NCBI GenBank assembly: GCA_026125285.1
Contig: JAHCLO010000014.1
Location: 1-64,000, forward strand
Reading direction: 5' to 3'
Length of the DNA: 64,000 bases
Origin: Verrucomicrobiia bacterium
GTDB taxonomy: Bacteria; Verrucomicrobiota; Verrucomicrobiia; Limisphaerales; JADLHS01
A program made the translations under genes and the position numbers. Of this stretch, positions 27,354-32,853 are shown one piece after another (the first letter of the stretch is position 1; each line of letters opens with the position of its first letter). The notes beneath the pieces were generated by a model. It was not told where the DNA came from, ran no database searches, and was given only the letters and a program-made list of their open reading frames with translations.

Positions 27354-27390
27354 CCGGGCAGCGGACGGCTTCGCTTTCTTGAAGAGAAAA

Positions 27391-27416
27391 GGGCGGTTGG
27401 TTTGAGCCAACCGCCC
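27391..27416. terminator. Hairpin between Ig protein and R-M locus
   Basis: Perfect 10-bp arms GGGCGGTTGG and CCAACCGCCC with loop TTTGAG. No T tract follows on the plus strand. It has an A run before it, so it would terminate better on the minus strand. It separates the Ig gene from the restriction-modification locus. Confidence 0.55.
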
Positions 27417-27458
27417 TGAGATTCTCAGTTGACACCGTACTGCGATCGTGTCAGAAGG

Positions 27459-27483
27459 TGTCTTGACAAGTTCAGTCAAGACA
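27459..27483 (+). promoter_or_regulatory. Candidate C-box operator of the control protein
   Basis: The 9-bp arms TGTCTTGAC (27459-27467) and GTCAAGACA (27475-27483) are perfectly complementary around a 7-base spacer, and the right arm abuts the ATG at 27484. A second shorter inverted repeat TGACAC...GTGTCA lies just upstream at 27430-27453. A TTGACA-like element overlaps it. This is the expected layout of autoregulatory C-boxes in restriction-modification operons. Confidence 0.6.
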
Positions 27484-27795
27484 ATGCCGGACAAATCCAG
27501 CTTTGGCGAATTTATTCGCAAGATGCGGCAAGACCGCGAAGAACCGCTTCGCGTTGTTGCTGCAGCAGTGGATATTGATTCCACGTTGCTAAGCAAGCTG
27601 GAGCACGGCGATAGATTCCCGACCGAGGCGCAGATTTCCAAATTCGCCAGGTTTTTCAAAGTCTCCGAGGGAGAACTGAAGGGGCGGGTGATTGCGGACA
27701 AGGTCACGTCAGAATATGACGACGAGGAAGCGGCCTTGCACGCAGCCCAAATTCTCAAGGAACGAGCCACGCCTTACAGAACCAGCTCGAAATGA
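27484..27795 (+). CDS. HTH XRE-family control (C) protein of restriction-modification locus
   Basis: A 103-aa XRE/Cro-type regulator. The helix-turn-helix is at about 18-60 (MRQDREEPLRVVAAAVDIDS, TLLSKLEHGDRFPTEAQI). Such proteins time expression of R-M genes by binding C-boxes in front of their own gene. The ATG at 27484 was chosen over an upstream GTG/TTG-type extension because the inverted repeat lies immediately before it. It overlaps the first methyltransferase by 4 bases (ATGA), so the genes are coupled. Confidence 0.75.
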   Translation: MPDKSSFGEFIRKMRQDREEPLRVVAAAVDIDSTLLSKLEHGDRFPTEAQISKFARFFKVSEGELKGRVIADKVTSEYDDEEAALHAAQILKERATPYRTSSK

Positions 27796-28646
27796 CAAAG
27801 GGACAAATATTCACGGAACACGGCGTGCGCATGCGCCTCCAAGATTCACTTGAAGGCATGGCAGAGTTGCCCCCGCAGTCATTCGACCTGGCGATTGCCG
27901 ATCCGCCTTATGGCGCTTCCACGACGGCGACTTGGAAGATTGATCGCGGCCACGCGCTTGCCGGCATGGGCGGGGCGTGGAAGCTGGCGGCTCATTCGTG
28001 GGATCAGCTTTGCAACATCGAAGGATTCGAGGGGACGATGGCTTTTCTTTCGGAACTAAAGCGGTTGATCAAACCGACCGGCTCGATTTGGGTTCACGCT
28101 ACTTACCACAACGCCGGAGTGGTCAACGTCGCTTGCCAGATCCTCGGTCTGGAGATTATCAACGAGGTGATTTGGTTCAAACGGAACGCTTTCCCAAACC
28201 TCTCGGCGCGCCGGCTCACGGCCAGTCACGAAACCATTTTTTGGATTCATACCGGCGGCAAGCAGCGCCAATACCGCTTCAATTACGATGACGTCAAGGC
28301 GGCGCACTTCCCGGAAGACAACCTGAAGGAGCGCGGGAAACAACTGCGGACGGTTTGGGATATTCCGAACAACAAGAGTCGCGACGAACTCGAGTCCGGC
28401 TCGCATCCCACGCAGAAGCCGCTCCGGCTGACCGAGCGGTTGCTTTTGATCGCCGGTTTGCGCGGCGGAAAACTGCTCGTTCCATTTCTCGGCTCGGGCA
28501 CGGAGGTCATCGCGGGCATGAGATTCGGAATGGAATCCACGGGGTTTGAGATTGATCGCAATTATTTTGACCTCGCCTGCAAGCGAGTCCGGCAGGAAAT
28601 TGAGCAGACACAAGCCGCGCCAAAACTTGACCTCGTGCCATGCTGA
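27792..28646 (+). CDS. Site-specific DNA methyltransferase, beta-class (M1)
   Basis: A 284-aa amino-methyltransferase. The catalytic motif IV LAIADPPYGAS at about 32-42 precedes the AdoMet-binding motif I (VPFLGSGTE near 230). This order defines the beta class, which includes many type II enzymes such as DpnA. The C-terminal SHPTQKPLRLTERLL is also conserved in that class. The DPPY suggests N6-adenine methylation. It overlaps the start of the second methyltransferase by 7 bases. The specificity cannot be told from sequence. Confidence 0.9.
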   Translation: MTKGQIFTEHGVRMRLQDSLEGMAELPPQSFDLAIADPPYGASTTATWKIDRGHALAGMGGAWKLAAHSWDQLCNIEGFEGTMAFLSELKRLIKPTGSIWVHATYHNAGVVNVACQILGLEIINEVIWFKRNAFPNLSARRLTASHETIFWIHTGGKQRQYRFNYDDVKAAHFPEDNLKERGKQLRTVWDIPNNKSRDELESGSHPTQKPLRLTERLLLIAGLRGGKLLVPFLGSGTEVIAGMRFGMESTGFEIDRNYFDLACKRVRQEIEQTQAAPKLDLVPC

Positions 28647-29560
28647 TCGCCGATAATCCCTTCGAGCCGGTCATCAAATGGTCCGGCAGCAAGCGTTCGG
28701 TTGCAGCGAGCCTGCGGAATTTATTTCCGCGAGCCGCGCGATATTTCGAGCCGTTTGTCGGCGGCGGCGCGATGCTGCCGTTCCGTCCGTGCCGTGACGC
28801 GGTCGCGGGAGATGTCATTGAGGAGTTGATTGACCTTTGGGTTTGCATCCGCGACGAGCCGGACAGAACCGCGACTGAATACAAGAAGCGCTGGCACAAA
28901 CTACAAGACGAGGGGCACACCGCCTACTACGCGATCCGCGATACATTCAATCGGACGCGCAACCCGCACGATTTTCTTTTTCTCACGCGCACTTGCGTGA
29001 ACGGGCTGATTCGCTTCAACGGTGACGGCGATTTCAACAACTCGCTTCACCACACGCGCCCCGGCATCGCGCCGCAACGGCTTCGCGAAATCATCCGCAA
29101 GTGGAGCGTCGCGCTTCAAGGTGTGTCGTTCGCCAAAGCTGACTACCGCGAAACCCTGTCCCCGGTGGCGGCTGATGATCTGGTTTTTCTCGACCCGCCT
29201 TACGCCGCAACGCGCGGCAGGTATTCGCAGGAGAAATTTGACGTGGGGGGATTCTACGCCGAGTTGGGTCGTTTGAACGACGTTGGCGCAAAGTGGATCG
29301 TCACATTCGATGGCTACGCTGGGGAGCGAACCTACGAAGAATCGCTGCCGAAAGGCCTTTTCGAGATGCGGCTGGCGTTGCCTACGGGAAATTCCCCGTT
29401 CACCAAGCTCATGCGAACCGGCGTGGACGCGGTGGTCGAGTCAGTGTATTTGAACTTTGAGCCGCCCGCCAAAATTCTCCGCGGCTTCTCGGATGATCGG
29501 AACGAGAAAGCTCGCGTTGGCGTTGGTCTTGAGGTGGAGCAGGGTTGCCTTTTCGTTTGA
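28640..29560 (+). CDS. Dam-like adenine DNA methyltransferase, alpha-class (M2)
   Basis: A 306-aa D12-class enzyme. The N-terminal KWSGSKRSVAASLRNLFP and YFEPFVGGGAMLP (motifs X and I) and the catalytic VFLDPPYAAT near residue 185 follow the Dam/DpnM order. With M1 it gives the pair seen in MboI/DpnII-like systems, so one could protect each strand of an asymmetric site, or both could act on one site in different contexts. The last 120 bases are antisense to the 3' end of the endonuclease gene. The extreme C-terminus may not be conserved. Confidence 0.88.
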   Translation: MLIADNPFEPVIKWSGSKRSVAASLRNLFPRAARYFEPFVGGGAMLPFRPCRDAVAGDVIEELIDLWVCIRDEPDRTATEYKKRWHKLQDEGHTAYYAIRDTFNRTRNPHDFLFLTRTCVNGLIRFNGDGDFNNSLHHTRPGIAPQRLREIIRKWSVALQGVSFAKADYRETLSPVAADDLVFLDPPYAATRGRYSQEKFDVGGFYAELGRLNDVGAKWIVTFDGYAGERTYEESLPKGLFEMRLALPTGNSPFTKLMRTGVDAVVESVYLNFEPPAKILRGFSDDRNEKARVGVGLEVEQGCLFV

Positions 29561-31435
29561 AAAGAATTCCAGCGCGAACGCAGCGTCGAGGTTGCCGTGT
29601 TTAAGGCAGCGTTCGAGTTTCTCCTGGTTTTCCCAACAGAACGCCCCAGCGGAAATGACTTCGGAAACCAGCTTCAGCGGGTTGCCGCTGTATGGCGTCC
29701 ACTCTCTGCCGGGCGGCCTGCAAATCGTCGGAGGACTCGCCAGCAAGTCGTGCATGAACCGCTTCAGGCGTCGCCCAACAGTGTCCTCAAGTTTGCCAGC
29801 GGTGTCTTTGGATTCAATGGCCGCGAGAATGGCGGTCTTGCCTGATTGCGAAATCTGAATGACGTGGTCGGGACGTTTTCCATCCTTGCCAGAGACGCGC
29901 GGCAAAGATGTCCAACGATACTGCGTGCCAGCACACCCATCCCGCAGCGTGACGCCGCTCCAATCCCCGCCCGGCGGATTGCACATGGACTCGAAAATCT
30001 TTTCATCACCGAAACGCGAGAACAAAAGGTGGAGCACAGAATCAACATCATGCTCGCTGAATCTCTCCGGCAAGACCACCGTCGGAAACGCAACGAGCGC
30101 GTTGCGAGCCCTTGAGTCGCGATTCGTCAACACGGTCTGTGGCCCGCCGCGCAAGGTTGCACTGTCGGCCAGCACCGCATCGCTCAAGTTGATGACAGCT
30201 TCCCACAGCCCATTCTCCATCGCCAATTTAGCAGGGTTGGTTTGGAACGCTCGCCACATTTCAGCTTTCCCCGGCCCGGACACAACGGACAGGATCCGCG
30301 CTTCGTTTCCAAACAACATCCGAGCCAGCGGTACGAGTCCACGGTCGGGCCGAGAATCATCACCGCGAGGCTTGAAACCAGTGACCCAGACAACGACCAA
30401 CGGATGTTTGTTTAGTGCAAGCCATGCAACAAAATCGGCGTTGAGGCGATTGCCATAAAGTTGTTGAAGACTCTTTGCAAGTCGGGCGCACTTCGACTGC
30501 GGAATCAAGCAAATGGGAATTGCACCTGCGCCAACCGCCAGGCTTGACGCTGATTCAAGCCGTTTGACCAGCTTCGGAAAAGTTGTGGACACACGCACCT
30601 TGTCCGAGACTTTTCGAGTCCACGACAAGTTGCGGCGTTCCAGCCAATGCGCTTTTTCCAGAGCGCTTGGCTGGTTCAAGAACTCACTCCACTCATCACC
30701 GCGCAGCGTGTCCACGCGCTTTCGGCCCGCCGAAAGAATTTGAACCATCAGCAACGCGCGGGATGTCAATTCAGCCTCGGCTTGGGCGTGTGAAGCGCCT
30801 TCAATGGTGGCCCTCACCAATTGTTGCCCAATTTCCACGCCGAACGATGAGGCGAAATCCGCTCGAATCTTCGCGTCACTCGAAGGACTCGCCGCATAAA
30901 CCGGCAGGCATATGACACGATAAGCACGCGAGGCCGTGAGATAGGAAAACGGAACAATCGGATTCGGGAAACGTGATGCTTTGACCACCCGCCGCGCATC
31001 AAGCTCGACGCCGCCAACTTCGGCGAAGTAAAGATAAGGAATTCCGACCGCTGCACACGCCAACGCGCGGCCGTTGCGCTGCCAGGCGTTGTTTCCGGCT
31101 GGGAGCGCGCTGCAGAATTCCAACGCCGCCACAATCTGCTCGGTTGTTTCGTCGTTGGAAAGCTTGGTGAGAATAACATCCGTCGCCTCTCGCAATGGCG
31201 CACCGTGGTCGCGCAGCATTTGCTGAAGGTCTATTCGCCAACGCCCGTGCCCCGGAATCAAATCCACTCCGAACAAAACACTGCCGTCCTTGACGATTTC
31301 AAATGCTGGCCGAAAGGGATCGCTCGGAATGAGTCTGGCCTGCGCGGCAAAGGCTTGGGCAATTAGTTCCAAACAGCGATCACACTCGACGATGTTGTCG
31401 CCATGAATTCGGAACTTAATTTGGGATTCAATCAT
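29441..31435 (-). CDS. Candidate type II restriction endonuclease (PD-(D/E)XK)
   Basis: A 664-aa protein not recognised as a close homologue of any named restriction enzyme. Near residues 522-542 it has RPDHVIQIS followed after 16 residues by AAIESKD, which fits the PD...(D/E)xK nuclease core with P522-D523 and E540-S541-K542. The position beside a C protein and two methyltransferases makes restriction the likely role. It is transcribed against them and overlaps M2 by 120 bases. The protein is larger than most type II enzymes, so an extra N-terminal recognition or dimerisation region (about 1-480) is expected. It could instead be a type IV-like or fused nuclease. No signal peptide or membrane segment. 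Confidence 0.65.
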   Translation of the reverse strand: MIESQIKFRIHGDNIVECDRCLELIAQAFAAQARLIPSDPFRPAFEIVKDGSVLFGVDLIPGHGRWRIDLQQMLRDHGAPLREATDVILTKLSNDETTEQIVAALEFCSALPAGNNAWQRNGRALACAAVGIPYLYFAEVGGVELDARRVVKASRFPNPIVPFSYLTASRAYRVICLPVYAASPSSDAKIRADFASSFGVEIGQQLVRATIEGASHAQAEAELTSRALLMVQILSAGRKRVDTLRGDEWSEFLNQPSALEKAHWLERRNLSWTRKVSDKVRVSTTFPKLVKRLESASSLAVGAGAIPICLIPQSKCARLAKSLQQLYGNRLNADFVAWLALNKHPLVVVWVTGFKPRGDDSRPDRGLVPLARMLFGNEARILSVVSGPGKAEMWRAFQTNPAKLAMENGLWEAVINLSDAVLADSATLRGGPQTVLTNRDSRARNALVAFPTVVLPERFSEHDVDSVLHLLFSRFGDEKIFESMCNPPGGDWSGVTLRDGCAGTQYRWTSLPRVSGKDGKRPDHVIQISQSGKTAILAAIESKDTAGKLEDTVGRRLKRFMHDLLASPPTICRPPGREWTPYSGNPLKLVSEVISAGAFCWENQEKLERCLKHGNLDAAFALEFFSNEKATLLHLKTNANASFLVPIIREAAENFGGRLKVQIH

Positions 31436-31899
31436 TACGCTGGTGGCGAGACGGTATCAGCAAAACGATCCCTCCGACAAGCGCCGGGATTGTCAGCCCC
31501 ACAATCGCGTGTCAGATTCGACTGCACGACCCACGTACGTTGAATAAGGGACGCCGGCTGCAAGCTGGACGCGTGAACCGGTCTTTGATCGAACTTAGTG
31601 GCGTGTGAGATTGGAGGTGTTGTCAGTGCGGAAAGTATTCTACCAAAAAGCAAAAACTGCGTTGACCCGGCGGCATGAACATTAAGATGCTCGTGATCGC
31701 CTTGGGAGATATTGTGTCGGCTCGTTTGCGCGCCGGGTTGAGTGGTTTATCTCCCGGGTCGAGCCACGCAGTTCCGCATAGCGAGACAACTTCTGCGGGT
31801 AATCCTTGACCGTCACGCTCCTGGGCCAGAAGACGAGGTCCAAAGTCCGCAGCCAAGCGCTTCCCGGCAAGAAGGAATGGCGACAAGAAATGGCGCAGC
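31436..31899. other. Intergenic gap between R-M locus and sialic-acid cluster
   Basis: About 460 bases between the 5' end of the endonuclease gene and the 3' end of the aldolase gene. Several unconvincing frames overlap it, but none has a recognised motif. The endonuclease promoter must lie in the left part. No repeat, tRNA or strong hairpin was seen. Confidence 0.5.
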
Positions 31900-32853
31900 T
31901 TACGCCGGCCGCGATTCCAATCCGATCACGGTTTCCGTTTTCCGCTCCAGAACTCCAATGGCTTCCACCTGCCGGAGCAGACGGGAGATTTGATCCTCCG
32001 TCAGCCGTCGCAGCGGGAGACGCACCGGCCCGCAATCCACGCCCACCAGGCGCATGATTGCCTTGCCGGCGGGCAGCACGCCGAATTGCTCCAGCAACTG
32101 CACCAGCTTCACCGATTTCAATTGCAGCGCCTGCGCCGTCACGAGGTCGCCGGCTTGATGCGCGGCGATGATCTTGTGATAGAGCGGAGCGGCATAATTG
32201 TAGGTGCTGCCTACCGCACCGGGCACGCCCAGGGCCAGCCCGGCCAGCAACATTTCGTCGCAGCCAAACAGGATGTTGAACCGGCCATCTTCCGCTTCCA
32301 GGCACTCCTGCAACGACATCAGATTCGAACTGGTAAATTTGACGCCCGCCAGATTGGGAATGCGCGCGCGGCCTTTGCGCAGGAATTCCCGCATGGAAAG
32401 CTCCACCCCCGTCAATGAAGGTATGTCGTAGAAGTAGAACGGGAGGGAATCCGCCGCTGCCGCCACCGGTACACAGAAATCCAGCAAATCATCCACCGTG
32501 CCCGGTTTGAAGTAGGAGGGCGACAGAATGCTGACCGCGTCGGCGCCGATCTCCTGTGCGTGAGCGGCGAGGGCAACCGCATCGCCAAGGCTGTTATGTC
32601 CGGCATGAACCACAAGCTTCAGAGCCCCGTCGCGGATAGCCGTGCGCCAACGTTCCGCCACCTGTCGGCGCTCCACGACCGTGAGCGACAACCCTTCCCC
32701 AGTGCTGCCGCAAATAAACGCGCCCCTGACACCGTCGGCTATCAGGCGGGCTGCCTGTCGCTCAATGATGTCAAGGTTCAAGCTGCCGTCCGCGTGCATC
32801 GGGGTGTGGGGAGCGGCGACGAGTCCCGTGAGGAACTTGGAGTAGTTGCGCAT
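31900..32853 (-). CDS. nanA: N-acetylneuraminate lyase/DapA-family aldolase
   Basis: A 317-aa class I aldolase with a TIM-barrel. The pyruvate-binding GSTGEG is at residues 49-54, the catalytic Tyr is in FYFYDIPS (about 142), and the Schiff-base Lys is in AGVKFTSSN (about 172). The KFTSSN tail fits N-acetylneuraminate lyase rather than dihydrodipicolinate synthase. It cleaves sialic acid to N-acetylmannosamine and pyruvate. The long upstream frame is antisense to the regulator gene. The start is the ATG before RNYSK. It is divergent from the regulator, next to a sialidase and a mutarotase-transporter fusion, which supports a nan cluster. DapA activity is the alternative. Confidence 0.82.
   Translation of the reverse strand: MRNYSKFLTGLVAAPHTPMHADGSLNLDIIERQAARLIADGVRGAFICGSTGEGLSLTVVERRQVAERWRTAIRDGALKLVVHAGHNSLGDAVALAAHAQEIGADAVSILSPSYFKPGTVDDLLDFCVPVAAAADSLPFYFYDIPSLTGVELSMREFLRKGRARIPNLAGVKFTSSNLMSLQECLEAEDGRFNILFGCDEMLLAGLALGVPGAVGSTYNYAAPLYHKIIAAHQAGDLVTAQALQLKSVKLVQLLEQFGVLPAGKAIMRLVGVDCGPVRLPLRRLTEDQISRLLRQVEAIGVLERKTETVIGLESRPA

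Follow-up and report, generated by a model that had tools for sequence, protein, structure and literature searches.

The four-gene cassette described here (Table 1), situated in a stretch of 64,000 bp from a Verrucomicrobiia bacterium (in the following, the window), is an ordinary, intact type IIS restriction-modification (R-M) system of the BsmI type. Its 664-aa nuclease is almost certainly a member of the BsmI family, and the full description, i.e., a two-site ('IIT'-like) type IIS system of the same kind as BsmI and Mva1269I with specificity for GAATGC, is given a probability of roughly 0.8. An earlier note on this DNA had reported an R-M locus composed of a C protein, a beta-class and an alpha-class methyltransferase, and a convergent 664-aa protein, and all of these open reading frames were found in place. 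The same gene order and orientation exists in around 30 genomes from several phyla, such that the locus is not a product of chance.

Table 1. Features of the R-M cassette and its upstream flank; positions refer to the window.
Feature	Position	Strand	Details
GC-rich hairpin between the 792-aa upstream gene and the cassette	27390-27417		11-bp arms AGGGCGGTTGG/CCAACCGCCCT, 6-base loop
Perfect 9-7-9 inverted repeat, putative operator	27459-27483		TGTCTTGAC-AAGTTCA-GTCAAGACA
Helix-turn-helix (HTH) regulator (controller-like C protein)	27484-27795	+	103 aa, ATG at 27484
M1, beta-class N6-adenine DNA methyltransferase, CcrM-like	27792-28646	+	284 aa
M2, alpha-class Dam-family adenine DNA methyltransferase	28640-29560	+	306 aa
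Stretch in which M2 and the nuclease gene overlap antisense at their 3' ends	29441-29560		120 bp
BsmI-type restriction endonuclease	29441-31435	-	664 aa, convergent with M2

Concerning the nuclease, profile searches in Pfam, NCBIfam, and PHROGs yielded no family for the 664-aa protein; a Pfam match to YceD (E = 0.15) lies far below the cut-off and is attributed to chance. Residues 7-645 match the PADLOC model PDLC03434 for type II restriction endonucleases (713 positions) with E = 8e-115, and a search of all PDB sequences matched nothing but four BsmI chains (residues 8-633, E = 6e-82; 32.6% identity over 625 positions). An AlphaFold model, computed from the window protein together with 28 homologues (mean pLDDT 87.6, pTM 0.89), matched four BsmI-DNA crystal structures in the PDB over the whole chain with TM scores of 0.85-0.88 (E down to 1.6e-57), whereas the first match to a structure other than BsmI was non-significant (E = 0.015, probability 0.05). 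Structure modelling had been proposed in the earlier note, and its suspicion that the protein is a nuclease agrees with the BsmI match in sequence as well as in fold; its statement that the protein is not recognised as any named enzyme, however, does not hold, as both the PADLOC model and the BsmI crystal chains recognise it. BsmI is of nearly the same length (676 aa versus 664 aa), has the same fold (TM 0.87) and both catalytic glutamates, and has an N-terminal EFC/AGNxAWQRxGR stretch and a central KPRGDDxRPDRG stretch in common with the window nuclease. Despite this general similarity, the two enzymes share only 33% identity and belong to different clades.

The large size of the nuclease is accounted for by a single chain that harbours two active sites of the PD-(D/E)XK type, as reviewed for Mva1269I (PMC4081073). 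BsmI is available in the PDB in wild-type, bottom-nicking, top-nicking, and inactive forms (entries 9f38, 9ezd, 9ez5, and 9ez7). In the alignment of these chains to the window protein, the top-nicking chain exhibits E109V (AIEFC to AIVFC) and the bottom-nicking chain E546V (SIESK to SIVSK), while both exchanges are present in the inactive chain; E109 and E546 correspond to E106 and E541 in the window nuclease. Therefore, PD(523)...E541-S-K543 is equivalent to the top-strand site of BsmI, and D86...E106-x-C108 in the N-terminal part is, as judged from the alignment, equivalent to its bottom-strand site. The PD...ESK core had already been named as an active site in the earlier note, correctly so, and its key residues D523, E541, and K543 are kept across the homologues; the N-terminal site with D86 and E106, however, had been missed. 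All five residues are invariant in 29 nuclease sequences, as are AGNNAWQRNGR, which follows the N-terminal site, and the block DSRPDRG. Position 108 is Cys (or Ser) among these sequences and Cys in BsmI, whereas the equivalent position is a lysine in EcoRI-type sites. Presumably, AGNNAWQRNGR recalls the recognition segment AGNAIER of EcoRI, which we take as a lead only.

Both methyltransferases can be assigned to families. M1 matches N6_N4_Mtase (PF01555, E = 2e-37) and has DPPY before FLGSGT, i.e., the beta order, whereas M2 matches MethyltransfD12 (PF02086, E = 5e-28) in alpha order and reaches 137.7 bits with TIGR00571 (Dam; cut-off 114.85). The best model for both proteins is one and the same fused type II methyltransferase of 626 aa (PADLOC PDLC03302), to which M1 aligns at positions 11-261 (2.5e-78) and M2 at positions 361-626 (1e-60). 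MboI/DpnII systems likewise combine an alpha-class Dam-like methyltransferase with a second adenine methyltransferase; their nucleases cut palindromic GATC and have less than half the size of the 664-aa nuclease. The resemblance to MboI/DpnII loci claimed earlier thus applies to the methyltransferase classes and does not extend to the nuclease, for which PADLOC, Pfam, NCBIfam, and PDB contained no MboI/DpnII-type match and only BsmI-type ones. Single-chain enzymes with two catalytic domains come with two methyltransferases, either separate or fused, and an asymmetric site needs one methyltransferase per strand (PMC4081073); the match of M1 and M2 to the two halves of a fused model fits this rule. 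Mva1269I, a monomeric isoschizomer of BsmI, belongs to these enzymes (PMC4081073, reference 127 therein), its two catalytic domains being EcoRI-like and FokI-like; by description, it resembles the window nuclease in that the same polypeptide carries two distinct catalytic sites, one per strand. The source genome contains 15 matches to PF01555 overall; at G000:C4:85850-88350, two near-adjacent methyltransferase genes exhibit equal PF01555 scores.

The recognition sequence of BsmI is GAATGC (PMC7653180). With a maximal-order Markov model as the expectation, this word was observed 242 times versus 432 expected in 864 kb sampled from the source genome (C1-C3 and the window), i.e., at an observed-to-expected ratio (O/E) of 0.56 with z = -12.7, a z-score that is inflated roughly √2-fold because both strands were counted. 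GAATGC is the fourth most depleted of 2016 non-palindromic pairs in the source genome. Among other carriers of the nuclease, the ratios are 0.50, 0.60, 0.60, 0.75, and 0.84, the last being nearly undepleted, and in three relatives without the nuclease gene they amount to 0.83, 0.74, and 0.92, two of these relatives thus being mildly depleted. As the genomes are few, the stretches sampled, and the non-carriers partly depleted as well, the depletion is to be taken as support and not as proof; it favours a nuclease that would read GAATGC like BsmI does.

It is unlikely that the same BsmI-family architecture serves a different asymmetric recognition sequence. Specificity can shift at a distance of only 33% identity, in the tree a clear separation exists between BsmI and the clade of the window nuclease, and the depletion of GAATGC is moderate and weakly present even in relatives without the gene. 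It is, however, GAATGC itself that is depleted and not the non-palindromic words that differ from it by one base (mean O/E 1.07), and the EcoRI-like stretch AGNxAWQRxGRA is common to BsmI and nearly all of the 29 sequences. Far less probable is decay or repurposing of the locus, such that the nuclease would no longer cut and the methyltransferases would serve as epigenetic or anti-restriction enzymes: at least one relative carries an in-frame stop in the nuclease gene, but the window nuclease is intact with all invariant residues present, and the expected site is underrepresented in the source genome. The new type II subclass suggested in the earlier note, for which the absence of a Pfam, NCBIfam, or PHROGs family could be cited, is scarcely tenable, being refuted by the full-length BsmI match in sequence (residues 8-633) and fold, unless the biochemistry differs from that of BsmI, and being further opposed by the PADLOC type II match and by a methyltransferase pairing identical to that given for such enzymes (PMC4081073).

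Further words are extremely depleted in the same 864 kb of the source genome, i.e., GTGCAC (O/E 0.02), GTCGAC (0.03), GTAGAC (0.07), ATCGAT (0.07), CAGCTG (0.10), ATCGAC (0.16), and GAGCCC (0.39). Several of them are found again in relatives and Chloroflexota, which points to additional type II specificities, e.g., GTMKAC and RTCGAY.

Concerning the organization of the cassette, the start of M1 overlaps the stop of the regulator by 4 bases and the start of M2 overlaps M1 by 7 bases, which suggests that C, M1, and M2 form one coupled operon. The upstream hairpin is probably the terminator of the 792-aa gene. The regulator is an XRE-type HTH protein (HTH_31, 29.6 bits versus a Pfam cut-off of 27), and homologues with 30-54% identity are located at the same position before M1 in 13 fetched loci. 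The inverted repeat stops at the ATG of the regulator, such that a small HTH gene has a predicted palindromic operator directly upstream of it, as is characteristic of C-regulated R-M systems. A GACAAG-type box (G[AT]CAAGNC) lies no more than 70 bases ahead of the regulator gene in 12 of 14 loci, which are related and hence not independent, with 0.045 expected after shuffling, whereas none of the 14 upstream regions of the nuclease gene contained it; this contrast is somewhat flattering, since the pattern was chosen after viewing these very sequences. Additional action of the controller on the nuclease promoter was considered as well and is not supported by this motif test. The simplest reading is that of an autoregulated controller that would work on the methyltransferase operon without acting directly on the nuclease. 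A similar regulatory logic is described for Kpn2I, where the controller acts on the methyltransferase side and the nuclease gene is controller-independent (PMC6237814). The gene arrangement differs, however: the controller gene of Kpn2I is divergent from the methyltransferase gene and harbours the operator inside it (PMC6237814).

Under the BsmI-type reading preferred here, the nuclease would bind GAATGC as a monomer. Its N-terminal EcoRI-like site (D86, E106) would cut the bottom strand inside the recognition site, and its C-terminal PD-(D/E)XK site (D523, E541, K543) the top strand just outside of it, both cut positions being extrapolated. M1 and M2 would each methylate an adenine in one of the two strands of this asymmetric sequence and thereby protect the host, whichever of the two may serve which strand. 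The HTH protein would bind the inverted repeat before its own C-M1-M2 operon and set the level of the operon, in whichever direction, whereas the nuclease would be expressed separately from the opposite side.

Relatives of the nuclease were found at 37 loci in genome contigs and at 8 loci in viral contigs; a search of deposited phage genomes yielded none. Around 30 complete loci keep the order of M1 and M2 convergent with the nuclease. In the tree, the window nuclease groups with sequences from Chloroflexota (support 99/100), whereas BsmI is found at the opposite end together with a protein encoded on a Leptotrichia shahii plasmid (WP_018450723.1), which exhibits 45% identity to BsmI versus 32% to the window nuclease. 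None of 95 related genomes searched carries a relative of the nuclease, and the GC content of the cassette is lower than that of the window (56.9% versus 60.5%), so that acquisition from elsewhere is likely. An Anaerolineales homologue of the nuclease (L002:5974-7974) contains one in-frame stop, yet the GAATGC ratio in the sample of its genome is the lowest (0.40). Between the nuclease gene and a DHDPS-family gene, positions 31508-31900 of the window show 74-78% matches to several sites in the genome as well as to a sister genome; this stretch is possibly a dispersed intergenic element.

The M2 and nuclease genes of the window overlap tail to tail, and the TGA stop of the nuclease faces the codon for Ser in the ESVYLNF motif of M2. 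In 32 other loci, the overlap ranges from 36 to 132 bp, and its length is a multiple of three in all 33 loci. The nuclease stop lies opposite the Ser codon of ESVY[LFVM]N[FY] in 28 of these 33 loci and is displaced by two codons in the other five. On the Leptotrichia plasmid, a convergent Dam-like methyltransferase gene, which extends over the start of the record, likewise adjoins the nuclease gene, but the two genes abut without antisense overlap, and in the distant relatives L040, L042, L043, L045, and L046 the genes also abut, with an overlap of a few bases at most. The overlap thus probably arose once in the clade of the window nuclease, which has members in several phyla. In the open literature, no paper was found that deals directly with overlapping R/M tails or with the structure of BsmI. 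Whether the overlap is functional, in that tail-to-tail pairing of the transcripts would tie the output of the nuclease to that of the methyltransferase, is rather doubtful, albeit conceivable.

With the present results, the candidate for a new subclass is removed, and around 30 uncharacterised large nucleases from Bacteroidota, Chloroflexota, and other phyla are placed with BsmI. From this placement, the sequence that they recognise and the location of both active sites can be predicted, such that strand-specific nicking variants may be possible. With the conserved overlap, the physical locking of a nuclease gene to a methyltransferase gene can be put to the test: if it is functional, the nuclease and M2 genes would be inseparable, neither of them could be truncated there independently of the other, and their outputs would be coupled while the controller acts solely on the methyltransferase operon.
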